DNA from: Planctomycetota bacterium
GTDB lineage: Bacteria > Planctomycetota > Phycisphaerae > Phycisphaerales > UBA1924
Direction of reading: 5' to 3'
Length of the DNA stretch: 64,000 bases
Assembly: GCA_033763975.1 (NCBI GenBank)
Contig: JANRJM010000017.1
Span: 62,001 to 126,000 of the forward strand
Below, piece by piece: positions 34,956-52,938 of the stretch (the first letter of the stretch is position 1; each line of letters begins with the position of its first letter). The position numbers were made by a program, and so were the translations under genes. The notes beneath the pieces were generated by a model. It was not told the origin of the DNA, made no database searches, and saw only the letters and a list, made by a program, of their open reading frames with translations.

Positions 34956-35486
34956 TTATGGGCGGCCGGAACGCCCGATCCGCACGGAGTTCGAGACGGA
35001 CGAGAGCGGACGCCCGTCGGCGAGACGGATCTCGGCCACGAGTTCGCCCTTGAGATCGTCGATGACGTCCGTCCCGCCGTTATCGAGCAGGGAGAGAACG
35101 AAGACGAATCCCGGGCCGACCGGCCCGCGTCGCACGAGGCGCGCGGTCTCGTCCTCGGTGTACTTCCATTCCCGGATCACGCGCCCGTCGCGCGTGGTGA
35201 GGCGCAGCGAGAGCGTGCCGGGGACCATGATCGAGGCATCGCTGTACGCGTCCGAGAAGAGGTAGATGGTGACGCGGCTGGAATCGAGGTAGCCGTTGCC
35301 GTTGGTGTCCTCGAAGAAACTGAAGTACGGCAGCACCTGGGTGGGCTGGATGTCCGCGGGCGGGGGACGCGCGGGGCCCTTCTTCGGGGCCGACTGGCAC
35401 CCGACGAGGATCATCGCCAACATCGCCAGCACGAGCGACGGGCGCGCGGCGCGGGGCGCGGGGGCGGGCGAGACGTTGATGGTCAT
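34956..35486 (-). CDS. Lipoprotein coupled to the giant secretin gene (candidate pilotin)
   Basis: A 176-residue protein. Its ATG overlaps the secretin stop (ATGA). The lipoprotein signal ends VGCQS, with Cys at about 30. The mature part contains FFEDTNGNGYLDSSRVTIYLF, a calcium-loop-like Asp/Asn pattern, and a beta-rich C-terminus that ends RIGRSGRP. The overlap means that it is made with the secretin, and lipoproteins that guide secretins to the outer membrane (pilotins) often sit beside them. It is not similar to the known pilotins I can recall, so this is a positional inference only. Confidence 0.7.
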   Translation of the reverse strand: MTINVSPAPAPRAARPSLVLAMLAMILVGCQSAPKKGPARPPPADIQPTQVLPYFSFFEDTNGNGYLDSSRVTIYLFSDAYSDASIMVPGTLSLRLTTRDGRVIREWKYTEDETARLVRRGPVGPGFVFVLSLLDNGGTDVIDDLKGELVAEIRLADGRPLSSVSNSVRIGRSGRP

Positions 35487-38400
35487 CGCGGCGTCCCCGC
35501 GGGGGGCGTGGCGCGAGAGCCGCCGGGGATGAGGACCGACCGCGGCGGGGGCTCGACGGGCGTGCGCAGCGGCTCGTAGCCACCACCGGGCGCGGGCGGA
35601 TCGCCCGGCGCGGGGTCCGGCGGCTGTTCGGGCGAGCCCTCGCCCGCGTCGGGCTCGGGCGGGCGACGGGGCGCGACGTACCCGTGCTTCTCACGCTGCT
35701 GCTTCACTTCCTGGCGGATGCGCTCCAGGAACTCCTCGACGCGCGTGGGGTCGTTGAGCTGCTGCACGGTCTGCTCGGTCACGTCGCGCACGAGTTCGTC
35801 GGTGTTGGCGGTGTCGCTCGGGATGACGCGCGGCGTGAGGATCACGAGCAGTTCGGTCTTGGTCTGCGTGTTCTGCTTCGTGCGGAAGGGGATGCCGAAG
35901 AACGGGATGTCGCCGATGAGCGGCACCTTGGAGCGGCGCTGCTCGTCGGCGGTCTGGATGAGCCCGCCGATGACGACGGACTGGCCGTCCTTCACGGTGA
36001 CGACGGTATCGACGGTGCGCTTGGTGATGATGGGGGCGGTCTGGTCGCGGTTGATCTGGGTGGTGCGCTGGGTGAGCGAGGAGATCTCGGGGGCGATCTC
36101 CATGCGGACGAAGCCGTCGGCGGAGATGGAGGGCGTGACCTTGAGGGTGATGCCGACGTCCTTGCGTTCGACGGTGGAGACGATGGTGTCGGAGCCGAAT
36201 CCTCGCTGGGTCTGGCCGGCGAGGCCGATGTCCTCGACGACCTTGATGGTGGCTTCCTTGTTGTTGTTCGCGAGGACCTGGGGGTTCGAGAGGATCTCGA
36301 GCTTGCCCTGCAGTTCGAGCGCACGGATGAGGATGCCGAAGTCGGCGCTGGTGACGGAGAGGTTGGGCACGCCGATGGCCGTGGCGACGCCGACGCCCTG
36401 CGCGGTCGAGCCCACGCGGTAGCCCTCGCCCCCGAAGGGCCCGACGGTGACGTCCATGCCCCACTGCTCGCTGGAATCGACCGAGACCTCGGCGAGGAGC
36501 ACCTGGATCATGACCTGCGGCGGGGTCTGGTCGAGCTCTTCGACGATCTTGAGGACCGACTCCATGTAGCGGGGCGAGGTGGAGATGACCAGCTTGTTGC
36601 TGGACTCGTCGCCCACGACGGTGACTTCCTCCTCGAGGCGCCGCATGAGCGACCCGCTGCGCTCGGCCCCGAGCACGAGGCGCTCCTTGTCGGACTCGCC
36701 CTGGAAGTAGGACCGCAGCGTGAGCTCGATCTCCTTGGCCTTCGCGTTGCGGAGCTGGTAGACGCGGCGCTCGCGGTCGTTCGCGCTGATGGAGTCGAGC
36801 TCGACGACGACCTTGCGCACGAGGTCGAGGTACTCGGGCGTGCCGGAGACGATGAGCGAGTTCGTCCGCTGGTCGACCGCGATGGACAGGGCCATGCGCT
36901 CGTCGGGCACGGGCGTGACGCCGGACCCCGAGAGCCCCTCGCCCGCCAGCGCGGACGGGTCGTCCCCGAAGTTCGACGGCACGAGCACGAGCGCGTCGCC
37001 CTGCTGGCGCATCTGGAAGATGTCGCGGAGCAGGTCGCGCATGCGGACGGCGTCGGCGTTCAGCAGGCGGAACTGCTCGATCTTCCGAGCGCCCGCGCTG
37101 GACTGCTCGATGTCCTCGATCATCTCGGAGATGAGCTGCGTCATCGGCTCGGGTGCGGTGATCCACACCGAGTTCGTCCGCGCATCGGCGTTGAGCGTCA
37201 CGAGGTCCTTGATCGCGCCGTCGATGTCGGCCTCGCTGGGCGGGGTGGCGCGCTGCCCGAGCAGGTCGGATCGCATGCGGTCTCGCAGGAACTGCAGACG
37301 CGTCGCCTGCCGGCGCGATTCCGGGCTGGTCCCGCCGCTCACCGGGCGCCCGGCCAGCACGCTCTGCAGCAGGCGGACGACCTCGCCGGCGTTCGCGCTC
37401 TTGAGCTCGATCCACTTGATCTGCTGGCGCTGCGCCACCTCGACCGAGTCGATCTTCTTCGCGAGCGCCCGCAGCTCGACGATGTCCTGCTCCGACCCGC
37501 TCACGATGAGCGCGTTCAGCCGCTCGTTGGGCACCACGCGCACGGTGCCCTGGCCCCGGCGCTCGTTCTCCTTCTCGACGTAGAGCTGCGTGAGCGACTG
37601 GGCGGCCTCGGCCGCGCGGGCGCGCGAGAGCTGCACGACGTCCACGCGCTCGCCCTGCGCCAGGCGGTCGCTGCCGGCGGTCACGGCGGCGAGCAGTTCC
37701 TTCACGACGACGAGGTTCTCGTCGCTGCACGACACGATGAGCAGGTTGTTCACCGTGTCGGGCTCGATGCTGAACGCGTCGAGCGGGTTGCGGATGCCGC
37801 CGGACTGCGCCGCCGCCTGGATGCGCTCGCGCATGAGGCGTTCGATGCGCGGGGCGAGCTGGCGGACGTCGCCGCTGGAGACCGGGAGCACGTGCAGGCC
37901 GACGGAGAAGTTGGTCTGTTCGCCGTCGAGGTTCTTGAGCAGGCCCTCGACGATGGAGAAGCCGCGCTCGCTGGTGGAGACGACGAGCGCGTTGGTCCGC
38001 ACGTCGGTCGTCACGATCAGCCGGTCTTCGGGGCGCTCCTGCGCCAGGTCGGCGCGCTGGCGGAAGACATCGCGGAGCACGCCCGCGACGCGATCGGCGG
38101 CGGCGTAGCGGAGCGGGAAGAACCGCACGCTGTTGGCGGCGGACGCGCCCGCGACGTCGAGCTGCGCGACCATCGCGCGGATGACCTGGATGTTCGCGGG
38201 CGTGCCCACGACGATGAGCGCGTTCATCGCGGGCTCGGGCGTGACGGTGAGCCCGGTGACGGGCGCGAAGAGGTCGGCCGCCACGGGTGCCGCGCCGGCG
38301 GGCGCGCCATCCTGCGCCACGCGGAGGCGCCCGAACTGGCGCTGCAGCCCGGCGGCCTCGGGCGAGGTGTTGACGCCCCGCACCAGCACGTCGTTGAGCG

Positions 38401-41400
38401 TCTGCGCCAGGCGGGGCGCGTCGGCGTGCTTGAGCGCGATCACCACCGGCTCCACCCACTTGCTCACGCGGTCGGAGTCGAGATCCTTGACGAGCACCTC
38501 GACGAGCGCCACGGCCTCCTCGCGCCCCGCGACGATCATCGTGTTCGTGCGCTCGTCGACGGAGATCGCGATTTCCCCGGCGAGGGCCTGGCCCGTCGCG
38601 GTCGGGGGCACGCCGGCGCGCTGCGTGCCCGGGAGGCGACGCAGCGCCTCGCCCTGCGCAAAGAGCTGCTCGATCACGGTCTTGAGGCGCGTGGCGCCGG
38701 CATTCTCGAGCGGGAAGATCCGCATCACCACCGCGTCGCCCCCGGCCAGCGTGTCCAGCGCCTTCACCACTTCGCGCAGGGCGTCGATGTTGCCCTGCGT
38801 CGAGGCGATGATGAGCGAGTTGGACGTGGCGTCGGCCAGGACGCGCACGGGCTTGGTGAGGTCCACCGCGTGCTGGGGCTGATCGACCCCCGCCTTCACC
38901 ATCTGCAGGCGCCGGACCTGCTCGGCAAGCGCGCGGGCCGGGCCCGTGACGCCGGACGCGGGGTCTTCGACCTTCAGCATCGCGTTGAGCGTCGCCGCGA
39001 GGGTCTGCGCGGACGCGACCTTCACCGGGACGACCATCACGAGTTGCTGCGGATCGAGCGGGGCGCCGTCGATCGCGCGGACGACGGCCTCGACCGCGCG
39101 CCCGTCGCCCGGTGCGCCGACGACGGCGATCGCGCGCCGCGACGACAGCACGGTGATGGTGACCGCCTCGGAGACGACGCCGGGCCGGTCGGCGGGCTGC
39201 TGGGCCGTCACGCCCATCTCGACCAGCACGCGCCGGATGTCGGCGGGGTCGTTGTTCGCGACATCGATGATCGTGACGGTCTGGCCCAGGCCGGGCACGG
39301 CGGTCTCGCCGGGCTCAGCGCCGCCGACGGGGCGGTCGAGTTCCTCGACGATCGCGCGGACCTGTTCGAGCAGACGCGGGCTGCACGCGACGACGAGGGC
39401 GTTGCCGGAGCGATCGACCTCGACGGCGATGGTCTCGCCCTGCGACCGGGCCGTTTCGGTAAAGGTCGCGAGGATGGTCTGGCGGAGGCGTCCGGCGGCG
39501 ATGTGCTTGAGCCGCAGCACGTGCGGGGCGACGCGTCCGGCCTCGCCCTGCTGCTCGAGCGTCGAGGCGAGGACCTTGATCTGCGCGAACTTCTCGTCGT
39601 CGGCGCGGACGATGAGCGCGCCGGTGGAGTCGTCGCCGATGATCACCACGGCGCGCGGGCCGCCGGCACGCTCCGTGCCCGGGCGGTTCAGGTACATGTC
39701 GCGGATCGTGGCGGCGACGGCGGAGGGCTTGCCGGTCTTGAGCGGGATGATCCGCGGGGTCGGCATGTCGGCGAAGCCGGTGACGTCGAGCTGGCGGACG
39801 ATCTCTCGGATGCGCTCGAGCTCGCGCCCGCCGGCGAAGACGATCAGCGAGTTGGTCTGCACCTCGGCCGAGACGGTGGGCACGCCCTCGGCGTCGACCA
39901 GCACGGTGGGCTCCTGGCGCTGGTCGCCCGGGCGCTGCCCCTGGCCGGCGCGGGCGCGTGCGTCGCGCACCTGCGCCTGGCGGAGCTGCTCCTCGAGCGG
40001 GGCGCGCAGGCCTTCGTTGAGCGCCCGCGCGACGCTCGTCGCGTCGGCGTGCACGAGCGGGATGACCGCCAGTTGGCGCGTCGTGTCGTATTCCTCGGTG
40101 TCGAGCTTGGCGAGCAGCGCGCGGATGCCCTCCCACTGCGTCGCGTCCGCCCGGATGACCAGCGAGTTCGAGAGCGCGTCGGGGAGGATCGTGACGTTCC
40201 GGGCCGCGGGAGAGGCGGCCTCCGTTGCGAAGCGCCCGTAGAACACGCGGAGCGCGCCGGCGGCCTGGGTGGCGTTCGCGAACTTGAGCTTCACGAACTC
40301 GGTCGTGCGTTCCTCGGCCGGCGCCTGGTCGAGCTCGCGGACGATCGTCTCGATCTCCTCGATCTGGTCGGCGGGGGCGTAGACCGTGAGCGTGTTGTCG
40401 GCCCGGGCGTAGTCGATGCTCGGGGAGGGCTCGTTGGGGCTCTTGGGGCGGGCCCGCAGGAGCTGGTCGACGGTGTACGAGACCTCGCTCGCGTCGGCCG
40501 CCACGAGCTTGAACCGCCGGAAGACGAGCCCCGAGCGCACCGGCTCGGTGTCGATCTTCTTGATCTGGTCGAGCACGATCGCGATGGCCTCTTTCGAGCC
40601 CGTGAGCATGAGCGAGTTGCTCCGCACCACGGGCGTGACGGTCACCTTCACGTTCGCGGGCAACGCCGTGCGCAGCGCCTGCGCCACGTCCTGCGCCCGG
40701 GCGCTGGTCAGGGCCACGGTCTCGATGTTGGTCTCTTCGGCCTTGGGGGCGGCGTCCAACTGCTGGAGCAGCGCGACGACCTCCGGGTAGACGCCCGCCG
40801 GGGCCGAGATGATCACGGCGTTGGTCGACGGCTGGGGCGTGATGACGACGCGCTCGTCCTCGCGCGTGCCGCGTGCGAACATCGCGCGCAGGGAGTTCGC
40901 GACGTCCGCCGCGGTGCCGTTGCGCAGCACGATCACGTCGACGCGGCGGTCCTTGCCCCCGTCGGGCTGGTCGATCTGCGCGACCAGGTCCTTGAGCACG
41001 GCGAGGTTGTCGGGCTCGCCCGAGGCGATGATGACGTTGCCGTCGGCCGAGCCCACGACGCTCACGCCCGGCTGGTCCATGCCCTGCGCGCGGGCGCGGT
41101 CGGCGAAGAACTGACGCAGGCTGTTCGCCGCCCGGTCCGCGCGGGCGTGCTCGAGCGTGATGCTCTCGACCGCGAGGTTGCCCCCCTCCGGGCCGGCGTC
41201 GAGGGCGGTGACGTACGCCTCGGCCTGCTTCACGCGTTCGGCCTTGCCGACGAGGATGAGCGAACGCTGCGTGCGGTCGATCTCAACAGTGATGGCCTCG
41301 GGGTCCGGGCCCTGCCACGAGCGCCAGCCGGGCGTGGCGAAGGCGCGCTGCAGCACGGTGCGCAGGGCCGTGAGGTCCGCGCCGCGGACCTTCACGCTGC

Positions 41401-44400
41401 GGACGGTGACGGCGGCGCGCTCGGCGTCGGGCAGGTCGAGCGTCGCGATGACCTTCTCGGCCAGGGCGATGGTCTCGCCCCGCCCGACGATGACCACGCT
41501 GTTGGTGCGCTCGTTGGTCTCGATGTGCACCTGCACGCGTTCGTCGCCCTCACGCGGGCCCCACATCGTCTCCCAGCGCATCTCGTCGACGATCGTCTTG
41601 ATCGTGTTCGAGACCTCGCTCACGCGCGCGTGCTTGAGCGTGACGACCTTGAAGACGAGGTCCTGCGACGGCGCGGGCGTGTCGAACGTCCTGACGAGTT
41701 CCTTGACCTGCTCGAACTCCTCGTCGGGGGCCGAGACCATGATCGTGCCGGTGCGCGTGTCGCCCACGACGGCCACGCGGTTCACGCCCCGGGCCCCTGC
41801 GCGCCCGGACGCACGCTCGCGGAAGAACTGCTGCAGCGCCCGGGCCACCTCGGCGGCGTTGGCCCGCTCGAGCTTGATCGAGCGCAGCGGGAGCCCGCCG
41901 GTCTCGGCCTGGTCCACCTGCGCGATGATCGCGCGGACCTCGGCCAGGTCATCCTTGGACGCGCGCACGACCAGCACGCTCGAGCCGTCGTCGCCGGCGA
42001 TCTGCACGCGCTCCTTGCGGCCCGGGTCGCGCCCGCCGATGACCTCGTCGACGATGCGGCGCACGGTGCTGGGCGCCGCCTGGCGCAGGGTGATGATCGC
42101 GAGTTCCTGGTCCGGATCGGTCAGGGCCGCGTCGGCCTGCTTGAGGAGGGCCGTCGCCTCGCGGTGCTGCCCCTCGCTGGCGGTCACGAGCAGCGTGTTG
42201 GTGCGGGGCTCGGCGATGAACCGCGCCTGCGGGATCTCGCCCCCCGCGCCCTGGCGCTGCGCATCGAAAAGCGTCTGGAACGTGCGGGCGAGTTCCTCGG
42301 CCTTGGCGTGCGTGACGTCGTACCGCCGGATCGCCAGGCGTCCTTCTACGGGGCTCTGGTCGATGGTGGCGATGAGGCGGTCGATGACGGGAATCGCTTC
42401 GTCGGGAGCCGCGACGATGAGCCCCGCCCCGCCGGGGTCGCTGGCGAGGCGCACGAGCGCGGGGTCGAGCCGGCCCGAGACCACGCCGTCCTCGCCGGCG
42501 AGGGAGAGTTCGACCTCGCGCACGCGCCGGGCCTGCGCCCCGCGGGGCGCGTTCGAGAACAGGTCCTGCACCGACTGGATGGCCCGCTGGGCCGTGATGT
42601 TCGCGAGCGGGTAGACCTTGATCGTGACCTTCCCGCCGGCGGGCGTGGCGCTGAAGGTGGCGAGCAGCGTGCCGACGGTCTCGAAGTCGGTGTCGTTGCA
42701 CAGCACGATGAGCGAGGACCCGGCCGGATCGACCGCGACGCTGACCGGGCCCGTGAAGCCGCCCGCGTTGCCGGGCGACATCCGCCCGATCTGCGAGACC
42801 GTCTGGCGCAGCGTCTGGGCGATCTGCTCGGCGTCGAGGCTCGCGGGCGTCGGCACGATGCGCACGCCCACGGGCTCGGCAGGCAACTGCGATTCCAGCG
42901 CGCGCGCCAACTGCAGCAGCCGGTCGGTCTGGCGGGGCGAGCCCACGACGATGATGCTGTTCGTGGACTTGTCGACCGCGATCGTCAGCCCGCTCTCCGC
43001 ATCGAACGCGTCGGGCGGGGTCGGGGCGGTGTCGTCCGGCGCGGCAGGAGCAACCGGCGCGGGCGGCGGCTCGGAAGGCTGATCGTCCGGTGCCGCGTCC
43101 GGTTCGTCGGCCGGCTCATTCGGCAACTCGTCGCCCCGCGCATCGCCGGGCAGGAAGTCCTCGGCCGGGGTGGCGGGCGCTTCGAGTGCGCCCGGGTTGC
43201 CGATGATCGACGCCAGCACCGCGCCGACGGTGGCGCTCACTCCCCGCCGTCGAGACCCCCGATCGTCCATGGTGCGGGGCTTGGCGGGCGCCTCGCCCGC
43301 GGGGCGGGCGCGCTTCAGCAGGTCCTCGGTCGAGATCACCTCGACCTTCATGCCGCCCTGCTGCTCCATCAGGCGCTGCAGCGTGCGGGCCAGCAGTTCG
43401 GCGTCGACACGCGACGGATCGACGGCGATGGTGCGCATCTGCCGGCTCGACGCGACCGCCGCGGCGTCGAGCGTCGAAGCCAACTCCTCCACCGTCTTCA
43501 TCTGCGCGTCGCTCGCGCGGACGACCAGCGCGTTGCTCGCGCTGTCCACGCGGATGACCGGCGGCAGGTCGCCCCCCGGCGCGTCCTTGAAGATCGCCTC
43601 CAGGCTCTGCGACAGTTCCCGCGCGTCGGCGTTGCGCAGCGTGATCACCCGCACCGCGCGCGACGGCTCGGCCCCCGCGCCGCTCACGTCCAGCTCGCGC
43701 ACGACGTCCTCGGCCATGTCCACGACCGAACGCGGCCCGCTCACCACCAGCGCGTTCAGGCGCGGGTCGGCCACCACCCGCACCCGGGGCGGCTCGGGCG
43801 TCCCGCGCGACAGCACCTGCGCCCGCATCCAGTCGGGCATCCGGTCGAGCGCCGACTCGCGCGCCAGCACGCCCTCCAGCACGGGCGCCAGCACCTCGGC
43901 CCGCGCGAACTTCAGCGGAATCGACCGCACGCCCAGCCCCTCGCGGTCGACGCTCGCGTCGAGCTGCTCCACCAGCTTCGCCGCGTGGTCCAACTGCTCG
44001 CTCGTGCCGACGACCACCACCGTGTTGCTCGCCGGCTCGGCCGAAACCGTCGCGGGCGATGCGCCCGGCTTGTCCTGCGCCTTGAGGGCCGTGGTGAGCG
44101 CCCCGGCGACGCCCGACGCGTCTCCCTTCTGCAGGCGGAAGACGCGTACCTCGGTCGCGCTCGCGACAGACTGCTGATCCAGCGCCTTGATGATGCCGTC
44201 GGCGACCGCAAGCACCGGCGCCGGGGCCGACACGATGATCGTGTTCGACGACGCGTCCGACGCGACCTCCACCAGGCGCTCGCCCTCGGGCACCGCCTTG
44301 CCCTCCAGCGCCCGCATCTCGCGCGCCCGCGTCGTCAGCACGCGCTCGACGATCGTCGCGATGCGATCGGCCCGCGCGGCCGTCAGCGCGTACAGCTTCA

Positions 44401-47400
44401 TGTCGGTCGGGGGCAGGTCCGCGCCGACGTCGACCTTCGCCAGCACCTCTTCGACCGCCTTGAACACCGGCGCGGGCCCGCTCACGATCAGCGTGCGCGT
44501 CGGCGCGTCGGTCGAGATCGTCACCGGGCCGATGCTGCCCGCGTTGCCCAGCGCACCCTCGGACGCGAGCGCCCGCAGCGTGCTCGACAACGCCGCCAGG
44601 TCGGCCCGCTGCACGCGGTAGGTCCGCACCGTGACCGAGTCTGAGAGCTTGGCCTGGTCGAGGCTCTTCACCAACTGCTCGAAGCCCGAGAGGCGCTTCG
44701 ACGGCGCGTCGACGATCAGCGAGTTGGTCGCCCGGTCGGCACGCACCACCACCTCACGCGGCGGTCGCAGGTCCGGGCGGGGCTGGCGCGTCCGCGGGTC
44801 CAGCGGGATCGGCGGGTCGGGGTACATCTGGTCGATGGTCTGGGCGAGTTCCTCGGCGCGCGCCACCTTCAGCGGGAAGATGCGGATCTCGCGCCCCTCG
44901 GCGTCGGCCGCCTGCGTCTCGTTGAGCTGCGTCGCGATCGCCTCGATCTCGGGCAGCACGTCCTCGTGGGCCGACACGATCAGCGTGTTGGTCGCCGGGT
45001 CGGCCTCGATCGTCACCGGGCGGCGCCCGCGATCGTCGGGCGTGCGTCCGTCGTACGAGCGCTGCAGGACCGACGCGAGGTTGGCCGCGTCGGTCGAGCG
45101 CAGGCGGATGATCCGCATGGGCGGGCGTTCGCCGCCCGCCTTGGAATCGAGGCTGCGGGCGAGCGACTCGATCACCAGCATCTGCGACGGCTGGGCCGCG
45201 ACCATGATCTGGTTGGTTGACTCGATGACCTCGAAGACCGGCGAGGCGCCGCCCCGCATGGTGAACGACTCGCTGGACTCGACCAGATCGCGCAGGAAGC
45301 CCACGACGTCGGGCGCCTTGGCCACCTTCAGGTCGATCAGGCGCACCTCGCGCGCCGGGCCCGCCTGGCGGTTCAGCTCGTCCATCACGCGCGCGAATCG
45401 CTGCATGCTCTCGGCGTCGGCGACGACCATGAGCGAGTTGCTGGTCTCGTCGACCGTCACCTCGATGGGCGTCGCCCCGGGCACCTGCGCCACCTGCGCG
45501 TCGTAGATCTTGACCGCGCGCTCTCGCACGCCGCCGGCCTTCTCTGCCACCACCGGGAAGATCCGCAGCGACTTCTCGATCGGCACCAGCGACAGGTCCT
45601 TCAGCAGCTTCTCGACCGTCTCGAACGTCTTCGCGTCGCCGGCGACGATCAGCGTGCCGCTCTTGGGCTCGGGCTCGATGAGCACCTGCACGGGCGGCTT
45701 GCCGGGCTGGGCGATCTCGGTCAGCACGCCCCGCGACGCCATGCTCTGCAGCGTCCGCGAGACCGCCTCCAGGCTCTGCGTCGGAACGCGGAACGTCCGC
45801 AGCACCGCCTGCGGCGGCAGTTCCACGCGGTCCAGCTTCTCGGCGAGTTCCTTCAGCGATTCCATCCGCTCGGGCGAGGCGTCCAAGATCAGCGCGTTGC
45901 TGTTGGGCTCGGCCGAGACGAACACGTCCTTGGGCTTGCGCAGCCAGGGCTGCGGGCGCCCCAGCCGGTCGACCGGCATCGGGGGCTCGGGGAAGAGCCG
46001 GTCCATCGCCGTCGCGACGTCGGTCGCCTTCGCCACCTTCAGCGGGAAGAGCTCCGTCACGCGCTCGGGCTGGTCGCGCTTCTCCTTGTTGATCTCCTCG
46101 ACGAACGCTCTGATCTCCGCGAACAGGTCCTCGTGCGCCGACACGATCAGCGTGTTCGTCGTCGCGTCGGCGCGCACCTCGACGGGCTTGGCGAGGCGCT
46201 CGGCCTGCGGACGCTTGCCGTACTGCTCGGTCAGCATCCCGGCGATCGCCGGCGCGTCGGCCGTGCGCAGCTGCAGCAGCTTGAGCGCGGGCAGCACCTG
46301 CTCGTCCGGGCGGTCGAGGCGCGCGATGAAATCGCCGACGAGGCCGTGCTGCGCGTCCTCCGCCGTCACGAGCAGCGAGTTCGTCCGCTCCACGACCTGG
46401 ATCGTCGGCTCGGGCACCGCGCGCGCGGGGTCGATCGGGTCGGCGCTCTTCACCATCTCCCGCACCGACTCGACGATCGTCTTCGCGTCGGTGTTCCGCA
46501 CGTCGATGACCCGCGTCGTCCGCGCGGGCGGCACGAGCTGCTGCGCCTGCGCCAGCGACTCGGCGTATACGCGCACGTCCGCCGGGCGCCCGCTCAGCAC
46601 CACGTTGCCCGTGCGCGTGTCGAACTCCACGCCCACCGCCGGCGCGCCCGCCTCGCCCGACCCGGGCACGCGCGTCTCGTACAGCTTCTTTGCGCGCGCC
46701 AGCAGCGCCTGGGGCTCGGCCCCGCTGAGCCGGATCACCCGCACGTCCTGCCCGCCGGCCTCGGCCGCGTCGAGCTGGCGGATCAGCGCGTCGAGCACCT
46801 GGAACTGCGAGGGCTGCGCGCGGACCACGAGCATGCCCAGTTCGTCCGCCGCGTCGAACGCCGGCTCGGCGTAGGCCCCGCCGTCGGAGGGCGCGAGCAT
46901 CGCCCGCGCGAGGCGTGAGGCCTTCCCCGCGACGCTGCTCGGTGTCGCCCGCTGCAGCGTGTACCGCCGCGACTCGGTGGTGGAACCCGTCGTCGCCTGG
47001 AGCTGCGAGAGGATCGCGTCGAACTCGCCCAGCGCGGTGCGCGAGCCCACGAGCGTGACGGTGCGTGACGAGGCGTCGAGCGATGCCGTCACCGGCTCGC
47101 GCTCCGCCCGCCCGCTCTCCTTGTACAGCGTCTGCGCGCGCTCGAGCATCGCGCCCGGCTCGCCGCGCGAGATGGTCACCAGCCGCACGTCGCGGGGCGT
47201 CGTGCCCGGCACGTCGATCGCGCGGAGCAGGTCTTCCACGCCCCGCACGTCCGGCTCCGGACCCATCACGATCAGCGACGTGCCGTCGGGCCCGGGCGCC
47301 ACCTTCACCGTCTGCTGCACGCGGGGCGTGCCAAGGCGCGTCAGCAGCCCCTCGGCCACGGCGGGCGTCACGTTCGTCAGGCGCACGATGGACGCGAGCC

Positions 47401-48727
47401 GCTCCGCGTTGCCCCCGCCCCCGGCCGCGGCCCCGGGGTCCAGTTCGCTCAGCAGCATCGACGCCTGCGCGACGAACCCCTTCGACCCTACGAGCGTGAT
47501 CTTCCCCGCGCTCGCCAGCGGGAGCACCGCCGGGCGGCGCTTGGGGTCCAGCGATGCGAACAGCGCGTTCACGTGGCGGGCGGCCTCGTCGGGCGTCACC
47601 GTCACCAGCGAGAACGTCCGCAGCTCGACGCCCGAGTCCGGGTCGCCGGCGGACGCGATGCCCGTGCCCTCCGGCACGTCCAGCAGCTTGATGACCTCTT
47701 CGACCAGCTTGATCTTCGCCTCGGGCCCCACCGCCACGATCGAGTTCGTCCGCGGGTCGGACGCGAGGTTCAGCCCCTGCATGGACTGGTCCTGCACCAC
47801 GCGCTGCCCGCCGTCCTTGTCGACGATCACCGTGCTGCGCTTCTCGGAGATCAACCCCCTGAGCGCGTTGAGCACCGCGTCGCACGACGCGTGCTTGAGC
47901 GGGAAGAGGCGGAACGCCGCGTCGGCCGGGCGGCGCGCGTCGATGGACTCCACGACCTCGCGGATGCGCCGCACCTGCCCGACGCTCTCGACCACGATCA
48001 GCAGGTTCTGCGCCGGGATCGCGACCACGCCCCCGAAGGGCCCGATCATCGCCTTCACCTGCTCGGCGACCTGGTCGGCCTTCGCGTTCTCCAGGGGGAT
48101 GCTGACGGTCACGATCTGGTCGGGCGTCATCGCCGCCAGACCGTTCTCGTCGACCGGGCGCGAGCCGGCGCGCTTCATCGAATCGGCGAGCGTCGCGAGG
48201 TACAGGAAGTTGCCCTCGTGGCGCAGGTGCACGCTGAACCGCGCGAGGTTCAGGTTCAGGATCGAGAGCGCTTCGCCGAAGGTGTACGACGACCCGCTGA
48301 CGAACGTGACCGAGCCCTGCGGGATGGCGGCCTCGTAGATCACCGGCACGCCGCTCTCGCGCGCGAAGATGTCCAGCACCTGGTCGACCGGCGCGTCCTT
48401 GAAGTTGAACTTCACCCCGTCGCGCGGCCCGCCGGCGGCCTTCGGCGCCGGCTGCTCGACCGGCTTGTCGAGGGGCTTGTCGAGGGGCTTCTCGGCGGTC
48501 GCGTCCGCGGGCTGGGCCGCTCCGGGCTGCTCGGCTACGGGTGCGGCGGCGAGCGCGGCGGACGCTCCGTCGACCGGCGGCACCGGGTCCGGGCTCGCGG
48601 GAAGATCCGCCGGCGGCTGGGGTTCGGGCGCCGGCACGGCGTCCTGCGCGAACACGGAAATCGGCCACCCGGCGACACTCAGCATCGCGGCGGCGACGAC
48701 CACCCGAGAAGCCTTTCCACGGGGCAT
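35483..48727 (-). CDS. gspD: Giant type II secretion secretin with about 46 tandem N domains
   Basis: A 13.2-kb gene for about 4,414 residues, against roughly 650 for ordinary GspD. Order: signal peptide (ending ISVFAQ); Pro/Ala-rich linker to about 100; N0-like domain (105-185, VKFNFKDAPVDQVLDIF); an array of about 46 secretin-N domains (207-4069), each about 84 residues with an xIPLxxA(K/R)A start, a TNxLIV core and a closing LD; then one secretin domain (about 4070-4305) with VVIGGLI and VPLIGDIPFFGIPFRT; and a Pro-rich tail. A Pro/Asp-rich linker interrupts the array at 1798-1910. GGGAGG precedes the ATG at 48727. The frame is open throughout with uniform composition. It should form the outer-membrane channel of the locus. 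The role of the extra domains is unknown. Confidence 0.93.
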   Translation of the reverse strand: MPRGKASRVVVAAAMLSVAGWPISVFAQDAVPAPEPQPPADLPASPDPVPPVDGASAALAAAPVAEQPGAAQPADATAEKPLDKPLDKPVEQPAPKAAGGPRDGVKFNFKDAPVDQVLDIFARESGVPVIYEAAIPQGSVTFVSGSSYTFGEALSILNLNLARFSVHLRHEGNFLYLATLADSMKRAGSRPVDENGLAAMTPDQIVTVSIPLENAKADQVAEQVKAMIGPFGGVVAIPAQNLLIVVESVGQVRRIREVVESIDARRPADAAFRLFPLKHASCDAVLNALRGLISEKRSTVIVDKDGGQRVVQDQSMQGLNLASDPRTNSIVAVGPEAKIKLVEEVIKLLDVPEGTGIASAGDPDSGVELRTFSLVTVTPDEAARHVNALFASLDPKRRPAVLPLASAGKITLVGSKGFVAQASMLLSELDPGAAAGGGGNAERLASIVRLTNVTPAVAEGLLTRLGTPRVQQTVKVAPGPDGTSLIVMGPEPDVRGVEDLLRAIDVPGTTPRDVRLVTISRGEPGAMLERAQTLYKESGRAEREPVTASLDASSRTVTLVGSRTALGEFDAILSQLQATTGSTTESRRYTLQRATPSSVAGKASRLARAMLAPSDGGAYAEPAFDAADELGMLVVRAQPSQFQVLDALIRQLDAAEAGGQDVRVIRLSGAEPQALLARAKKLYETRVPGSGEAGAPAVGVEFDTRTGNVVLSGRPADVRVYAESLAQAQQLVPPARTTRVIDVRNTDAKTIVESVREMVKSADPIDPARAVPEPTIQVVERTNSLLVTAEDAQHGLVGDFIARLDRPDEQVLPALKLLQLRTADAPAIAGMLTEQYGKRPQAERLAKPVEVRADATTNTLIVSAHEDLFAEIRAFVEEINKEKRDQPERVTELFPLKVAKATDVATAMDRLFPEPPMPVDRLGRPQPWLRKPKDVFVSAEPNSNALILDASPERMESLKELAEKLDRVELPPQAVLRTFRVPTQSLEAVSRTLQSMASRGVLTEIAQPGKPPVQVLIEPEPKSGTLIVAGDAKTFETVEKLLKDLSLVPIEKSLRIFPVVAEKAGGVRERAVKIYDAQVAQVPGATPIEVTVDETSNSLMVVADAESMQRFARVMDELNRQAGPAREVRLIDLKVAKAPDVVGFLRDLVESSESFTMRGGASPVFEVIESTNQIMVAAQPSQMLVIESLARSLDSKAGGERPPMRIIRLRSTDAANLASVLQRSYDGRTPDDRGRRPVTIEADPATNTLIVSAHEDVLPEIEAIATQLNETQAADAEGREIRIFPLKVARAEELAQTIDQMYPDPPIPLDPRTRQPRPDLRPPREVVVRADRATNSLIVDAPSKRLSGFEQLVKSLDQAKLSDSVTVRTYRVQRADLAALSSTLRALASEGALGNAGSIGPVTISTDAPTRTLIVSGPAPVFKAVEEVLAKVDVGADLPPTDMKLYALTAARADRIATIVERVLTTRAREMRALEGKAVPEGERLVEVASDASSNTIIVSAPAPVLAVADGIIKALDQQSVASATEVRVFRLQKGDASGVAGALTTALKAQDKPGASPATVSAEPASNTVVVVGTSEQLDHAAKLVEQLDASVDREGLGVRSIPLKFARAEVLAPVLEGVLARESALDRMPDWMRAQVLSRGTPEPPRVRVVADPRLNALVVSGPRSVVDMAEDVVRELDVSGAGAEPSRAVRVITLRNADARELSQSLEAIFKDAPGGDLPPVIRVDSASNALVVRASDAQMKTVEELASTLDAAAVASSRQMRTIAVDPSRVDAELLARTLQRLMEQQGGMKVEVISTEDLLKRARPAGEAPAKPRTMDDRGSRRRGVSATVGAVLASIIGNPGALEAPATPAEDFLPGDARGDELPNEPADEPDAAPDDQPSEPPPAPVAPAAPDDTAPTPPDAFDAESGLTIAVDKSTNSIIVVGSPRQTDRLLQLARALESQLPAEPVGVRIVPTPASLDAEQIAQTLRQTVSQIGRMSPGNAGGFTGPVSVAVDPAGSSLIVLCNDTDFETVGTLLATFSATPAGGKVTIKVYPLANITAQRAIQSVQDLFSNAPRGAQARRVREVELSLAGEDGVVSGRLDPALVRLASDPGGAGLIVAAPDEAIPVIDRLIATIDQSPVEGRLAIRRYDVTHAKAEELARTFQTLFDAQRQGAGGEIPQARFIAEPRTNTLLVTASEGQHREATALLKQADAALTDPDQELAIITLRQAAPSTVRRIVDEVIGGRDPGRKERVQIAGDDGSSVLVVRASKDDLAEVRAIIAQVDQAETGGLPLRSIKLERANAAEVARALQQFFRERASGRAGARGVNRVAVVGDTRTGTIMVSAPDEEFEQVKELVRTFDTPAPSQDLVFKVVTLKHARVSEVSNTIKTIVDEMRWETMWGPREGDERVQVHIETNERTNSVVIVGRGETIALAEKVIATLDLPDAERAAVTVRSVKVRGADLTALRTVLQRAFATPGWRSWQGPDPEAITVEIDRTQRSLILVGKAERVKQAEAYVTALDAGPEGGNLAVESITLEHARADRAANSLRQFFADRARAQGMDQPGVSVVGSADGNVIIASGEPDNLAVLKDLVAQIDQPDGGKDRRVDVIVLRNGTAADVANSLRAMFARGTREDERVVITPQPSTNAVIISAPAGVYPEVVALLQQLDAAPKAEETNIETVALTSARAQDVAQALRTALPANVKVTVTPVVRSNSLMLTGSKEAIAIVLDQIKKIDTEPVRSGLVFRRFKLVAADASEVSYTVDQLLRARPKSPNEPSPSIDYARADNTLTVYAPADQIEEIETIVRELDQAPAEERTTEFVKLKFANATQAAGALRVFYGRFATEAASPAARNVTILPDALSNSLVIRADATQWEGIRALLAKLDTEEYDTTRQLAVIPLVHADATSVARALNEGLRAPLEEQLRQAQVRDARARAGQGQRPGDQRQEPTVLVDAEGVPTVSAEVQTNSLIVFAGGRELERIREIVRQLDVTGFADMPTPRIIPLKTGKPSAVAATIRDMYLNRPGTERAGGPRAVVIIGDDSTGALIVRADDEKFAQIKVLASTLEQQGEAGRVAPHVLRLKHIAAGRLRQTILATFTETARSQGETIAVEVDRSGNALVVACSPRLLEQVRAIVEELDRPVGGAEPGETAVPGLGQTVTIIDVANNDPADIRRVLVEMGVTAQQPADRPGVVSEAVTITVLSSRRAIAVVGAPGDGRAVEAVVRAIDGAPLDPQQLVMVVPVKVASAQTLAATLNAMLKVEDPASGVTGPARALAEQVRRLQMVKAGVDQPQHAVDLTKPVRVLADATSNSLIIASTQGNIDALREVVKALDTLAGGDAVVMRIFPLENAGATRLKTVIEQLFAQGEALRRLPGTQRAGVPPTATGQALAGEIAISVDERTNTMIVAGREEAVALVEVLVKDLDSDRVSKWVEPVVIALKHADAPRLAQTLNDVLVRGVNTSPEAAGLQRQFGRLRVAQDGAPAGAAPVAADLFAPVTGLTVTPEPAMNALIVVGTPANIQVIRAMVAQLDVAGASAANSVRFFPLRYAAADRVAGVLRDVFRQRADLAQERPEDRLIVTTDVRTNALVVSTSERGFSIVEGLLKNLDGEQTNFSVGLHVLPVSSGDVRQLAPRIERLMRERIQAAAQSGGIRNPLDAFSIEPDTVNNLLIVSCSDENLVVVKELLAAVTAGSDRLAQGERVDVVQLSRARAAEAAQSLTQLYVEKENERRGQGTVRVVPNERLNALIVSGSEQDIVELRALAKKIDSVEVAQRQQIKWIELKSANAGEVVRLLQSVLAGRPVSGGTSPESRRQATRLQFLRDRMRSDLLGQRATPPSEADIDGAIKDLVTLNADARTNSVWITAPEPMTQLISEMIEDIEQSSAGARKIEQFRLLNADAVRMRDLLRDIFQMRQQGDALVLVPSNFGDDPSALAGEGLSGSGVTPVPDERMALSIAVDQRTNSLIVSGTPEYLDLVRKVVVELDSISANDRERRVYQLRNAKAKEIELTLRSYFQGESDKERLVLGAERSGSLMRRLEEEVTVVGDESSNKLVISTSPRYMESVLKIVEELDQTPPQVMIQVLLAEVSVDSSEQWGMDVTVGPFGGEGYRVGSTAQGVGVATAIGVPNLSVTSADFGILIRALELQGKLEILSNPQVLANNNKEATIKVVEDIGLAGQTQRGFGSDTIVSTVERKDVGITLKVTPSISADGFVRMEIAPEISSLTQRTTQINRDQTAPIITKRTVDTVVTVKDGQSVVIGGLIQTADEQRRSKVPLIGDIPFFGIPFRTKQNTQTKTELLVILTPRVIPSDTANTDELVRDVTEQTVQQLNDPTRVEEFLERIRQEVKQQREKHGYVAPRRPPEPDAGEGSPEQPPDPAPGDPPAPGGGYEPLRTPVEPPPRSVLIPGGSRATPPAGTPR
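36520..48109 (-). repeat. Array of about 46 tandem secretin-N domains
   Basis: My count from residue 207 to 4069 is 46 repeat units by the recurring start (hydrophobic-x-hydrophobic-L/V, then Ala-rich helix), the TN-hydrophobic-hydrophobic-V strand and the closing LD. The mean unit is about 84 residues; loops vary from about 60 to 110. Units are diverged, so the repeat shows at protein level but hardly at DNA level. The exact count could be off by one or two. Confidence 0.85.
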
Positions 48728-48821: not shown

Positions 48822-49823
48822 TCACCCGAGCGGACGACGCGCGGCGAGTGTCTGTCCGTTGGTCACCTCGAACCGCTTCCCACCGATCTCGAACACGGCG
48901 CGCTCGCCCGACCCTTCGACGAACACCGCGTCAAGCACCGCACCGCCCACGCCCACGGTCATCTTCGCGCCGGTCTTTGTGTTCACGAGCAGCACGCTCG
49001 GCCCGAGCCGCCCCTCGAACACCCCGTGCAAGTGCCAGTCCTCGTACGGCGCGAACGCGATGACGGGCGGCGGTGGCGCCGGCGTCACGGGCGCGACCGC
49101 GATGATCTCCGGGGGCGCGTCGGGCGCCGCCGGCGCGGGCTTGCGGAAGACGTTCTTGCCCGCGACGAGCACCGCCGCGCTCGCGAGCGCCTCGGGCGTG
49201 GGCTCGATCGTCGGCTCGAACGCGCCCACGCCGCCGAGCCGCGCGATCGCCGGGGCGAGCATCGTCGAGACCTCGGCGCGCAGTTCCACGACGTCGCGCT
49301 GCTTGCCGCTGGCGCGCAGCGTCACGCCCTCGACGCGCGCGACCCACGCCTGCGACTGCAGCGCCGCGAGCGTCGCCATCGCCTTTTCGTACGGGCCGGT
49401 GCCCCGCACCGTGCCCCGGATGATCGCGAAGTCGGCGTCTTTGCGCAGATCGCGCTTCAGCGAGGTCGGCACGCCCTTGACGCCCAGCAGCGGGTTGCTC
49501 GCGTCCTGCGGGCGCGCCGTGTCCACCGTCACCCCGCGCAGCCCGTGCTGCTCGGCCAGGCGCGCGAGCCCGTCGCGGAACCGCGCGCTCACGTCGTCGG
49601 CCTCGACCCCCAGCAGCCCGGCGCCCATCGCCCGCGCACGCTCTCGCACCTGCGTCCCTGAGTCCAGCGTCCGCTCGAGCGACGAGATCGACGACTCGAT
49701 CGACGCCAGGTCGCGCCGCAGGGCCGCCCGCGGCGACAGGTACACCGAGTCCACCGCCATCCACAGGACCGCCGCGACCACCAGCGGCACGCCGGCCTTC
49801 AGCACCACCGGGGGAATCTTCAC
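48822..49823 (-). CDS. gspM: GspM/PilO-like protein with C-terminal GspC/PilP-like domain
   Basis: A 333-residue inner-membrane protein; the GTG at 49823 overlaps the gspL stop. One membrane segment (about 9-28) is followed by a coiled coil (ASIESSISSLERTLDS) and an alpha-beta domain typical of GspM/PilO. After a Pro/Ala-rich linker (about 235-258) the last 75 residues, starting EDWHLHGVFEGRLGPSVLLV, run as short beta strands with GVGGAVLDAVFVEG, closely like the homology region of GspC or the PilP domain that docks on the secretin N0. This would explain why no separate gspC is present. The fusion is inference from pattern; the GspM part is more secure. Confidence 0.75.
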   Translation of the reverse strand: MKIPPVVLKAGVPLVVAAVLWMAVDSVYLSPRAALRRDLASIESSISSLERTLDSGTQVRERARAMGAGLLGVEADDVSARFRDGLARLAEQHGLRGVTVDTARPQDASNPLLGVKGVPTSLKRDLRKDADFAIIRGTVRGTGPYEKAMATLAALQSQAWVARVEGVTLRASGKQRDVVELRAEVSTMLAPAIARLGGVGAFEPTIEPTPEALASAAVLVAGKNVFRKPAPAAPDAPPEIIAVAPVTPAPPPPVIAFAPYEDWHLHGVFEGRLGPSVLLVNTKTGAKMTVGVGGAVLDAVFVEGSGERAVFEIGGKRFEVTNGQTLAARRPLG

Positions 49824-51355
49824 GGCGCACCGTCCTTTCCGCCCGTCGCCGGCGCCGTCGCCGACCGCGTCCGCAGCACCAGCCGGAACCGCTCGGGCAC
49901 GTCCGCCGTCGGCGTCTCGACCGTGTACCCGCCGCGGCTCAGCAGCGTCTCGCGCAGGTCGGCCCCGACCTGACGCCCGGAGATCGTCCCGTCCAGATCG
50001 ATCGTCACGTCCACCCGCGACGACCACTTCCCCGACGGGAACGACTTCTTCTCCTCGAGCGCGTACACCCCGTCGCCCTTGGCGCGGGCGCTCAGGTCGT
50101 CCAGCACCGCCGGGCCGGGTTCGGGCATCGTCCCCGTCACGTGCGCGATGTGCGAAAGCCAGTCCGCCCGCGCGTCCTTCCACCGCTCGGCGTGCGCGAC
50201 GCGGGCACTCTCGCGCGCCAGTTTCTCGGATTCACGGCGCAGCCCGGCCTCGCGCGTTCGCAGCACCCCCAGCGTCGACCGCATCGATCCCAGTTCGCGG
50301 TCGGCCCAGACGTACCCCGCGCCGCAGAGCACGATGAGCCCGAGCACGCCGCCCAGGGCCGCCTGTCGCAGTCGGGCGCGCGTGTCCGGGGCGCGCCGGG
50401 GGTTCGCGAAGTCGAGCGAGACGCGTCCCTGGACCGTCTCGAGCGCGAGCCCGAGCAACGCCGCGCAGTCCGATCGCATCGCTTCGGGCATCGCCGAGGG
50501 AACGCGGACCAGCACGCCCGGGCCCACGCTTTGGCCGGGCGAGTCGAGGGCCGCCCCGCACAACCGCGCGACGCGATGGCACAGTTCGCCCTCGCCCATG
50601 ACGAAGACACCCTCGACCCCCGACGAGGCTCGCCCGGCGCGGAAGCTGCCGAGCGTGCGCCGCGCCTCGACGCTGATGCGCTCCGCGAAGGCTTCGAACC
50701 CGCCCTCGCCATCGGGACGCGCCAGGTCGATCGCCCGCGCCATCGCCACCCCGCCGCGTTCGACGAGCACGAGGTCGGTCGCGTGGGCGCCGACCGCCAC
50801 GCCCAGGATCGTGCCGTCGCGCCGGTCCGACAGGTCGCCCAAGATCGCGCCCACGCCCAGGCAGCGCAGCGCGATCCGGCGTACACCCATCCCCGCCGCC
50901 CCGGCCATCTGGTCCCACCACGCACGCCGCTCGGCCGGCAGCGCACCGGCGAGCACCTCGACGCCCGTCCCGGCGCTGCGCAGCGGGACGAAGTCGATCG
51001 GCGTGTCCTCGGTCGTGACCGTCAACTGGCGCGACATCTGCAGGCGCACCATCCCGCCCAGGTCGCTCTCGCGTAGCGGGCCGTCCGCCGGCGCGGGGAA
51101 CATCAGCGGCTTCAGAACGACGTCATTTCTCGGGATGACCAGCACGACGCGCCCGAGCGGCACCTCGGCCTTGCGCAGTTCGTCGCGCACCCACTGTCCG
51201 ACCTCCTGCGCGCTGTCCGCCTTCACGTGCGCCGGGCGGTCGGCCGCGTGCCACACGCGTACATCCACCTGGTTCGTGCTCAGGCGGACGCCGACCGCCG
51301 TCAGGCGTCCGCCGTCCAGTTCGACCAGCGACATGTCGCGCGCGCCGCCCATCAT
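49820..51355 (-). CDS. gspL: GspL/PilM-like protein
   Basis: A 511-residue protein. The start is set to 51355 because GGGGAGG lies six bases upstream and the ATG overlaps the gspK stop; an in-frame ATG at 51373 lacks such a site. The first about 320 residues have the actin-like fold of cytoplasmic GspL and PilM (SLVELDGGRLTAVGV, RVVLVIPRNDVVLKPL, GTILGVAVGAHATDLVLV). A membrane segment (about 330-350, GLIVLCGAGYVWA) precedes a periplasmic ferredoxin-like part. It links the ATPase to the inner-membrane platform. The cytoplasmic domain is longer than typical. Confidence 0.82.
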   Translation of the reverse strand: MMGGARDMSLVELDGGRLTAVGVRLSTNQVDVRVWHAADRPAHVKADSAQEVGQWVRDELRKAEVPLGRVVLVIPRNDVVLKPLMFPAPADGPLRESDLGGMVRLQMSRQLTVTTEDTPIDFVPLRSAGTGVEVLAGALPAERRAWWDQMAGAAGMGVRRIALRCLGVGAILGDLSDRRDGTILGVAVGAHATDLVLVERGGVAMARAIDLARPDGEGGFEAFAERISVEARRTLGSFRAGRASSGVEGVFVMGEGELCHRVARLCGAALDSPGQSVGPGVLVRVPSAMPEAMRSDCAALLGLALETVQGRVSLDFANPRRAPDTRARLRQAALGGVLGLIVLCGAGYVWADRELGSMRSTLGVLRTREAGLRRESEKLARESARVAHAERWKDARADWLSHIAHVTGTMPEPGPAVLDDLSARAKGDGVYALEEKKSFPSGKWSSRVDVTIDLDGTISGRQVGADLRETLLSRGGYTVETPTADVPERFRLVLRTRSATAPATGGKDGAP

Positions 51356-52938
51356 CGAGAACCTCCCCGCCACCGTCCGATCCGCCGATCCTGCTTCGCG
51401 GGGGGCCCCGCCGGCTGCTCGGGCGCGCCCCCGTCCGCGACATCGACCGGACGATTCTCCGGCGCTTGATCTTTCTCCTCCCGCGCGCCCGGCGGGCGGT
51501 CGTCGGCCTTGGCCGGCTCGCGCCCGGGCGACGGCGGCTCGGGGGCGCGCTCGCTCGACGGCTCGGGGCGGCCCGCGCGCGCCGGGCGCGCCCGGCGGAT
51601 CTGCGCCGGCACGTGCGTCACGTCGACGACGTCGGCCAATCGCGCCTCATCACCCGCGGCGTCGATCACCGCTTCCCATTCCGCCTGGCGCTCGACGCGC
51701 GCCGCGTCGCCCTCGCGCTCGCCCGCGCGTTCGATCGACGCCTCCACCCGCACGCGCCACACCATCGACCGGGACGTCACCCACGGGGCCGCCGCCGCAA
51801 ACGCCTCGGGCGTCAGCACGCTCTGCGTCACCAGCCAGACGGGCGATCGCAGCGTCTCGGCGGTGAGCCCCTGTCGCACGGAGACGGCCCGATCTGCCGC
51901 GCTCTCGTCAAAGCCGGGGATGCACCCGAGCACTTTGCGCGGCGCGCGGCCGACGTCCACCGTTCCCAGGCGGAACTCGTTGTCGGTCGTCGTGACGACA
52001 TCGAGCACCTCGGCCCAGGTCTCCGTCGCGACGCCGGCGGCGATCATCGCCGCGACAACATCGCTCTCGCTCGCGAGCTTGCCTCGCGACAGCACGAGCG
52101 CCAGGGCGTCGAGGCACGCCGACGACACCTGCCCCTTCAGCTCGTCGCGAACCTCGTCGCTCCACCCCGCCGACGCGTGCACCCGCTCGCGCCCGCGCTC
52201 GCCCCGCCCTTCACGTGAGATGCCCACCCACGTGTCGGGATCAAAGGCGAACGTCGTCACGAGGTGGCGCATCCCGCGCCCGTCTGGGTTCTGCGCCGAG
52301 TCGTCCGGGGCGCCGTCGCCGGTCGCCGCCGCGTCGTCGCGGGCCGAAGTGCGCCCGCCGCCGCTGTCGCGCCCGTCGCTCGACTCCTCGCCTTCTTCGC
52401 CCTCTGCGCCGGGCGAAACGCCCCAGAAGGCCCGCGCGTCGACGCCCGCGACTGCCCCGAGCGACGCGGGCGAGGCGAACCCCGCCGCGCCGCGTGCCGC
52501 GACAATCGCCCGCGCCAGGTCCTCGCCAACGCCGGGCAGTTTCGCGAGCATGGGGGCGTCGGCGCGGTTGAGATCGAGTCGCGCGTTCTCGCTCGCGGCG
52601 ACATCACCGGGCGTGTCCGAAATCTCCAGCAGGCGAACGACGCCGCGGCGCCCGCCCTCTTCCCACAGCACCCACTCGCTGGTGAGCTGCGGCGACCCGC
52701 CGTCGAGGATCGCATCGCGCTGGGACTGCACCTCGGCGAGCGCGCCCCGCACGCCCGACCACGCGAGTGATCGCAGGCGCAGATCCTCGGCGCTCGCGAC
52801 GCTGACGCTGCGTTCGGCGTCGGATCGCACGAGCATGGTCGTGCCCGCGAGCGCACCCATGGTGATCACCACGAGCGTGAGCATCAGCACGACGCCGCGT
52901 GACGTCGCACGCCCGGAACCGGCCGTACGGGCGATCAT
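51352..52938 (-). CDS. gspK: GspK-like minor pseudopilin
   Basis: A 528-residue protein whose ATG overlaps the gspJ stop. The N-terminus is a prepilin-like hydrophobic helix (GVVLMLTLVVITMGAL) without Glu at +5, as usual for GspK at the tip of the pseudopilus. The SAM-like domain shows ARLDLNRADAPMLAKLPGVGEDLARAIVAARG, a helix-hairpin-helix pattern typical of the family. Between about 180 and 220 is an acidic Gly/Ser/Asp-rich insertion. The C-terminal 75 residues are Pro/Arg/Glu-rich and probably disordered. That extension is not seen in standard GspK. Confidence 0.82.
   Translation of the reverse strand: MIARTAGSGRATSRGVVLMLTLVVITMGALAGTTMLVRSDAERSVSVASAEDLRLRSLAWSGVRGALAEVQSQRDAILDGGSPQLTSEWVLWEEGGRRGVVRLLEISDTPGDVAASENARLDLNRADAPMLAKLPGVGEDLARAIVAARGAAGFASPASLGAVAGVDARAFWGVSPGAEGEEGEESSDGRDSGGGRTSARDDAAATGDGAPDDSAQNPDGRGMRHLVTTFAFDPDTWVGISREGRGERGRERVHASAGWSDEVRDELKGQVSSACLDALALVLSRGKLASESDVVAAMIAAGVATETWAEVLDVVTTTDNEFRLGTVDVGRAPRKVLGCIPGFDESAADRAVSVRQGLTAETLRSPVWLVTQSVLTPEAFAAAAPWVTSRSMVWRVRVEASIERAGEREGDAARVERQAEWEAVIDAAGDEARLADVVDVTHVPAQIRRARPARAGRPEPSSERAPEPPSPGREPAKADDRPPGAREEKDQAPENRPVDVADGGAPEQPAGPPAKQDRRIGRWRGGSR
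51362..51368 (-). promoter_or_regulatory. Shine-Dalgarno fixing the gspL start
   Basis: GGGGAGG on the minus strand ends six bases before the ATG at 51355, deciding that start over the in-frame ATG at 51373. Confidence 0.7.

Follow-up and report, generated by a model that had tools for sequence, protein, structure and literature searches.

A giant type II secretion system secretin with 46 secretin-N units in the planctomycete order Phycisphaerales

The giant gspD gene and its gsp neighbours

The window is a stretch of 64,000 nucleotides from a genome of the planctomycete order Phycisphaerales, and coordinates are given in its numbering. A giant gspD gene on the minus strand (35483..48727) encodes a protein of 4,414 aa in one open frame, which starts at an ATG at 48727 preceded by a GGGAGG ribosome-binding site and ends at a TGA at 35483. 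With the N-terminal 27 residues removed, the product has a mass of about 468 kDa. Between the window gspD and that of genome G117, differences at the three codon positions amount to 0.204/0.132/0.415, a distribution typical of a conserved protein that is read on the minus strand. Very long antisense open frames also cover giant gspD, in the window at 35684-44644 on the plus strand, because of the high GC content.

The following features of the protein are all encoded on the minus strand. A hydrophobic N-terminus, judged by eye from the sequence, is a putative signal peptide (48647..48727). An N0-like domain lies at about residues 104-205 (48113..48418): a profile from ten giant N-termini matches GspD in the PDB, within N0 through N2 (5wq7, E 1.2e-17), and no Pfam N0 match was obtained in the window protein at 0.001. 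Residues 209-4067 (36527..48103) form the secretin-N array, in which an HMM derived from the units and iterated over 61 proteins recognises 46 units; Pfam reports Secretin_N in 35 significant stretches (E 0) and Secretin once, and a mid-array profile matches the N domains of GspD in the PDB (5wq7, E 1e-12). The linkers, measured as gaps between HMM matches, are 8-13 residues long in 40 of the 45 cases; the one large gap belongs to unit 21, which carries a long Pro/Asp-rich insertion (42890..43462). The array is followed by the secretin domain, i.e. the outer-membrane (OM) channel (35822..36514, limits set from motifs; PF00263, E 1.1e-46), and by a C-terminal tail (35486..35821) that is Pro-rich towards its end in the sequence. 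The C-terminal profile matches GspD in the PDB (5wln, E 7.8e-49).

The original prediction, made from the letters of the DNA, had described an uninterrupted frame of 4,414 residues with a good ribosome binding site, an N0-like domain, about 46 secretin-N units and one secretin domain. Each of these elements was recovered: the coordinates were right, with the gene on the minus strand, and the unit count that had been suggested as a check gave exactly the predicted number.

Genes for further components of a type II secretion system (T2SS) surround gspD. Upstream of it and on the same strand lie genes for a GspM-like protein (48822..49823; relatives in 74 of 80 giant loci), a GspL/PilM-like protein (49820..51355; a weak TIGR01175 match without a Pfam match, relatives in 75/80 giant loci), a GspK-like protein with a helix-hairpin-helix domain (51352..52938), three minor pseudopilin-like proteins, namely GspJ-like (52935..53657; prepilin-like start and position), GspI-like (53654..54103; weak ComGE match) and GspH-like (54081..54866; TIGR01708 at E 2.4e-6, below the cut-off), the major pseudopilin GspG (54879..55385; TIGR01710 above the cut-off) and GspF (55489..56685; PF00482, E 5.8e-51). 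The GspE ATPase is encoded on the opposite, plus strand (58396..60075; PF00437 T2SSE, E 7.5e-130, and MshEN). The gsp gene context that had been predicted is thereby confirmed, for E, F and G by family and for H, I, K and L by weak matches or by domain. The C-terminus of the GspM-like protein bears a putative resemblance to the GspC homology region; a profile of this region matches GspC weakly in the PDB (2lnv, E 1.4, rank 5), and there was no Pfam GspC match in 11 members of the GspM-like protein.

Downstream of gspD, a small lipoprotein is encoded on the minus strand (34956..35486), its start overlapping the gspD stop in ATGA; it has relatives in 65/80 giant loci. As a guess, it may be a candidate pilotin. 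The lipoprotein conserves a D-x-N-G-N-G-x-x-D-like motif reminiscent of a calcium-binding loop, and 59 of its 65 relatives have a cysteine within the first 60 residues as called.

In ordinary GspD, the ring-forming N domain usually occurs about three times. The giant has an N0-like domain, Secretin_N, a secretin domain and gsp neighbours in common with the GspD proteins of E. coli and Vibrio, XcpQ and PulD; it differs in having 46 N units where these have about three, and 4,414 aa where PDB GspD chains with a secretin domain measure about 390-660 aa. On sequence features that could be tested, we conclude that the giant protein is the T2SS secretin GspD.

Unit order, block losses and fold of the array

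Within the window protein, the mean identity between units is 22% and internal periodicity is weak, with lags 2, 5 and 7 slightly raised. Each of the 46 window units finds its best match in the 50-unit references at its own place, with positions 18-21 left unoccupied. Across the GTDB family (f1), units at orthologous places are 0.41-0.74 identical, compared with 0.21-0.23 for other unit pairs, and the positions are recognisable across 38 family genera. Of 61 proteins scanned, 60 had units, 32-50 of them when one broken array (L082) is left out; exactly 50 units were found in 21/60 and more than 50 in none. The counts over 59 proteins given below omit L082 (G104), the array of which is broken over frames, and L035 (G116), the longest frame of which, 4,634 aa, is not a secretin and has no units. 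Arrays are unbroken in the single-contig assemblies G063 (38 units), G074 (50), G150 (48) and G522 (50).

The losses of units are unevenly spread. In the 59 placed proteins they cluster at positions 5-12 and 18-21, and positions 1, 2, 24-26, 31, 32 and 35-50 are never lost. When 24 distinct loss blocks were placed at random, positions 35-50 were avoided in 0 of 20,000 trials, a count that is no formal probability, as the trials treat the blocks as independent and descent or recombination hot spots may repeat them. Loss and conservation showed no correlation across positions (rho -0.02), and block losses also affect positions 9-15, which are among the best conserved. Conservation is highest at positions 15 (mean identity 0.77) and 10 (0.70), which carry a Y-P-x-P-P motif. 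In the window, units 9-11 (residues 816-1046) and 14-16 (residues 1205-1434) show a resemblance between units five apart, and other genera have lost some of these units in blocks.

The 18 loci of families f4 and f5 share the f1 unit order. In 17 intact f4/f5 frames, 22-46 best matches lie on the path, compared with shuffled maxima of 10-16; the remaining locus (L101, G547), which is split over three frames and omitted from the ranges of unit numbers, has pieces with 11, 20 and 15 units on the path, compared with 7-9 after shuffling. The 17 intact giants have 29-52 units. In most f4/f5 arrays, two extra units lie between positions 45 and 46; the losses in some f4 arrays extend to positions 36-40.

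A structure model of the mid-array units 22-33 (921 residues, from 8 sequences) had a mean pLDDT of 72.1, while an AF2 model of the C-terminal part was poor (pLDDT 50.9) and was left unused. In 11 of the 12 modelled units the elements strand-helix-strand-strand-helix are present, in some with extra elements; the first unit, which lies at the cut, is without its initial strand. For this model, the eight top-ranking Foldseek matches are all chains of secretins (E 3.9e-10 to 5e-7), at an rmsd of 37-44 Å over 304-369 columns. With VIA-align, the listing of which does not exclude families that it leaves out, one modelled unit superimposes on a GspD N domain with an rmsd of 1.4-1.7 Å over 59-65 residues, and units 28-30 superimpose on the XcpQ N-domain crystal with Z 11.5 and an rmsd of 4.4 Å over 169 residues, whereas several domains together superimpose on chains of GspD ring structures at 10-22 Å over 129-198 residues. 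The mid-array model thus supports the N-domain fold class for 12 of the 46 units; the large rmsd values indicate that the predicted monomer differs in its arrangement from a solved ring stack. As to the original concern that most units might not adopt the N-domain fold, the fold was recovered in the 12 modelled units, but their arrangement is unlike that in the ring structures.

Distribution and origin of giant secretins

Among the 163 genomes of the family, 86 have at least 19 Secretin_N matches, and none of the remaining 77 has more than 12. A search with the C-terminal 405 residues found matching frames at E 1e-40 in 82/163 genomes; 69 of these frames are 3,300-5,100 aa long, and the other 13 are shorter than 3,000 aa, several of them beginning at a contig end or being interrupted. 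A survey for long secretins, proposed along with the original prediction, thus gave matches to this C-terminal query in 82/163 family genomes; intact giants, those of other families included, have 29-52 units. Since 77/163 genomes are without sign of a giant, the family can do without a giant GspD. When 392 genomes were drawn evenly from the phylum, the frames longer than 3,000 aa among the matches listed belonged to the same order. A contig titled Leptolyngbya sp. PLA1 (L031) also carries a giant gspD locus with 69% identity, and its title is probably a misfit.

Four ordinary secretins of the same order are 741-809 aa long with three units each. Twelve frames with secretin-N units from other classes of the phylum, probably Planctomycetia, measure 1,210-1,515 aa and have 4-8 detected units, compared with 29-52 units in intact giants; the window giant is outside that range. 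Two frames of intermediate size with Secretin_N units were found outside the order, one of 2,701 aa (L124, G311) and one of 2,208 aa (G463:C1:4114472-4120024).

In a secretin-domain tree (FastTree, midpoint-rooted), the giants form one clade of 80 sequences with a support of 1.0, and their join with nine other-class sequences has a support of 0.317. The tree leaves out L121 (1,515 aa) and L124, out of 13 other-class frames with secretin-N units, and L119 was dropped because it shares a contig with L118. Mahajan and co-workers reportedly described in 2020 that Planctomycetales have T2SS secretins with extended periplasmic parts, and that the membranes of Tuwongella are about 45 nm apart. An extended periplasmic part, as reported for the GspD of Planctomycetales, is a feature of the giants as well, and the other-class secretins that adjoin the giants in the tree probably represent this extended planctomycete GspD group.

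The three giants of family f3 have 52, 38 and 42 units. Their arrays agree well with each other (32/36, 35/37 and 31/36 units on the path; shuffled maxima 12-13); compared with the f1 order, 12/31, 10/24 and 9/28 units lie on the path, with a shuffled maximum of 10 in each case. All three have a last unit that best-matches f1 position 50 and a preceding unit that best-matches position 49. The last units of the other-class secretin L122 match giant positions 48-50, and such agreement at the secretin end was absent in the one ordinary secretin checked (L132). In G270, the f3 giant is preceded by genes for E, F, G, K and a PilM-like protein. A single ancestral array for all giants is not supported in the case of f3, as its order matches that of f1 barely or no better than shuffled arrays do. 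Because the f3 arrays agree clearly with f1 only at the secretin end, they probably represent a separate expansion. The simplest reading of these sequences would be a shared ancestor with a short extension, followed by two separate expansions; alternatively, the f3 array may have undergone complete turnover. In the f3 giant of G597 (L114), similarity between units is highest at lags 2, 4 and 6, strongest at 2, and units are up to 91% identical, which points to recent growth by two-unit duplication.

Envelope context and proposed role of the array

The genome that carries the window giant also encodes an ordinary T2SS-type GspD (C8) of 825 aa, which has N0, N units (four of them) and a secretin domain like the giant but is of ordinary length. 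Its gene adjoins T2SSK and PilN-domain genes in a cluster cut by a contig end, and the protein falls outside the giant clade. An 899-aa secretin beside a T2SSE/MshEN ATPase and a further secretin of 737 aa are encoded in the same genome. Near the ordinary T2SS-type gspD of this genome, L095:1870-6999 on the minus strand encodes a protein of 1,709 aa that contains an M48 peptidase domain.

Given an ordinary T2SS-type GspD in the same genome, a uniformly wide periplasm is unlikely, which favours a long-reach system for places with membranes far apart. Described Phycisphaeraceae are without crateriform structures, the strain described measuring 0.4-1.1 µm across (PMC8882080), and invaginations in Planctopirus lack the pits that touch the inner membrane (PMC5394234); both points argue against a long-reach system. 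The generally wide, invaginated periplasm that had been proposed at the outset is not supported by the 825-, 899- and 737-aa secretins or by these observations on Phycisphaeraceae and Planctopirus (PMC8882080; PMC5394234).

Among secretin complexes that we found in the literature, the longest is that of Thermus PilQ at about 35 nm; it is 350 Å long with six N rings and the secretin domain (PMC5745081). A second source gives a periplasm of about 70 nm for Thermus thermophilus, extra N rings (N0-N5) in PilQ and a movement of its N-terminal domains by about 30 Å upon opening (PMC4463427). PilQ is a type IV pilus secretin of 757 residues with six N rings, whereas the giant belongs to a T2SS and has 46 units. 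Listings of the open-access literature contained no report of a giant planctomycete secretin. The giant GspD is a new, extreme variant; extended GspDs of other planctomycetes were already known.

We consider a fixed-length T2SS conduit of more than 100 nm, for envelope regions in which the membranes are far apart, to be the best explanation of the array, with a confidence that falls just short of even. Tandem duplication would have enlarged the array to about 50-52 units in an ancestor of three families of the order, after which it would have stayed in register. By analogy with N1-N3 in ordinary GspD, each N unit would form one ring of the multimer. Stacked on one another, these rings would make a periplasmic tube of well over 100 nm that sits with its N-terminal end on the inner-membrane platform and with its C-terminal end in the OM. 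At 2.5-3 nm per stacked ring the array would already exceed 100 nm, and 46 rings at 2.5-5 nm each would span about 115-230 nm. Unit number would set the reach, and the divergence between units would keep the protomers in register. The giant system would then serve the parts of the envelope with membranes far apart and the ordinary T2SS-type system the narrow parts.

The retained ends, the T2SS neighbours, the fixed order, the uniform linkers and the inner losses suggest that the array joins two fixed points, and the short, uniform linkers suit a stack better than loose beads. A conduit is also favoured by the retention of neighbouring genes in 65-75 of 80 loci and by the separate array of 38-52 units in f3. 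Against it stand the secretins of ordinary length in the same genome, the 77/163 family genomes that do without a giant, and the model, which is unlike a solved ring stack.

The alternative that fares best, which we regard as possible but rather unlikely, is that rings form only at the N0-like domain and at the final few N units and that the middle units are a string or folded bundle, with binding partners such as cargo, peptidoglycan or further proteins of the envelope. The KH domain, which N units resemble (Pfam KH matches; KH chains among the VIA-align rows), is a binding fold, and the arrangement in the model is closer to that of isolated N-domain crystals than to that of ring chains. Moreover, the well-conserved positions 9-15 are missing in part through block loss, and this loss, together with the rho of -0.02, means that binding modules fit as well as spacers. 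Such a bundle is less easily reconciled with linkers that are short and uniform, with N-domain features and order being kept by all units, and with block losses that spare both ends of the array in the family.

Two further explanations are improbable. A ring stack that compresses or telescopes would combine long reach with adjustable length and follow membrane movements; the coexistence of giant and ordinary secretins in one genome is in its favour, as is the shift of the N-terminal domains of Thermus PilQ by about 30 Å on opening (PMC4463427), but the linkers of the giant are short. Slightly less probable still is neutral growth, in which duplication raised the unit number without benefit and purging was slow. 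The recent two-unit duplications in G597 (lag 2, up to 91% identical) and the spread from 29 to 52 units among intact giants fit neutral growth; however, each position is recognisable across 38 family genera, third codon positions account for most of the change in the one pair tested, the 60 family proteins have 50 units at most, and a second lineage reached a similar size. Finally, an assembly error or chance reading frame, for which one could cite the long antisense frames opened by high GC and the unit-free longest frame of L035, has practically no chance of being correct and is ruled out by the order conserved in 59 proteins, the arrays in single-contig genomes and the codon-position pattern.

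Returning to the fixed-length conduit, we tentatively envisage, at clearly less than even confidence, a channel well over 100 nm long made of about 45-50 stacked, distinct rings of one polypeptide, which would be a length-coded ruler that evolved twice to a similar size in one order, with long- and short-reach T2SS in one cell. A conserved GspD with 46-52 N units poses the questions of what limits secretin reach and of how many copies of a protein with 50 repeats come together in register. The natural series of 29 to 52 units is suited to testing the ruler and its match to envelope geometry, and the intermembrane distance in Phycisphaerales becomes a concrete question.
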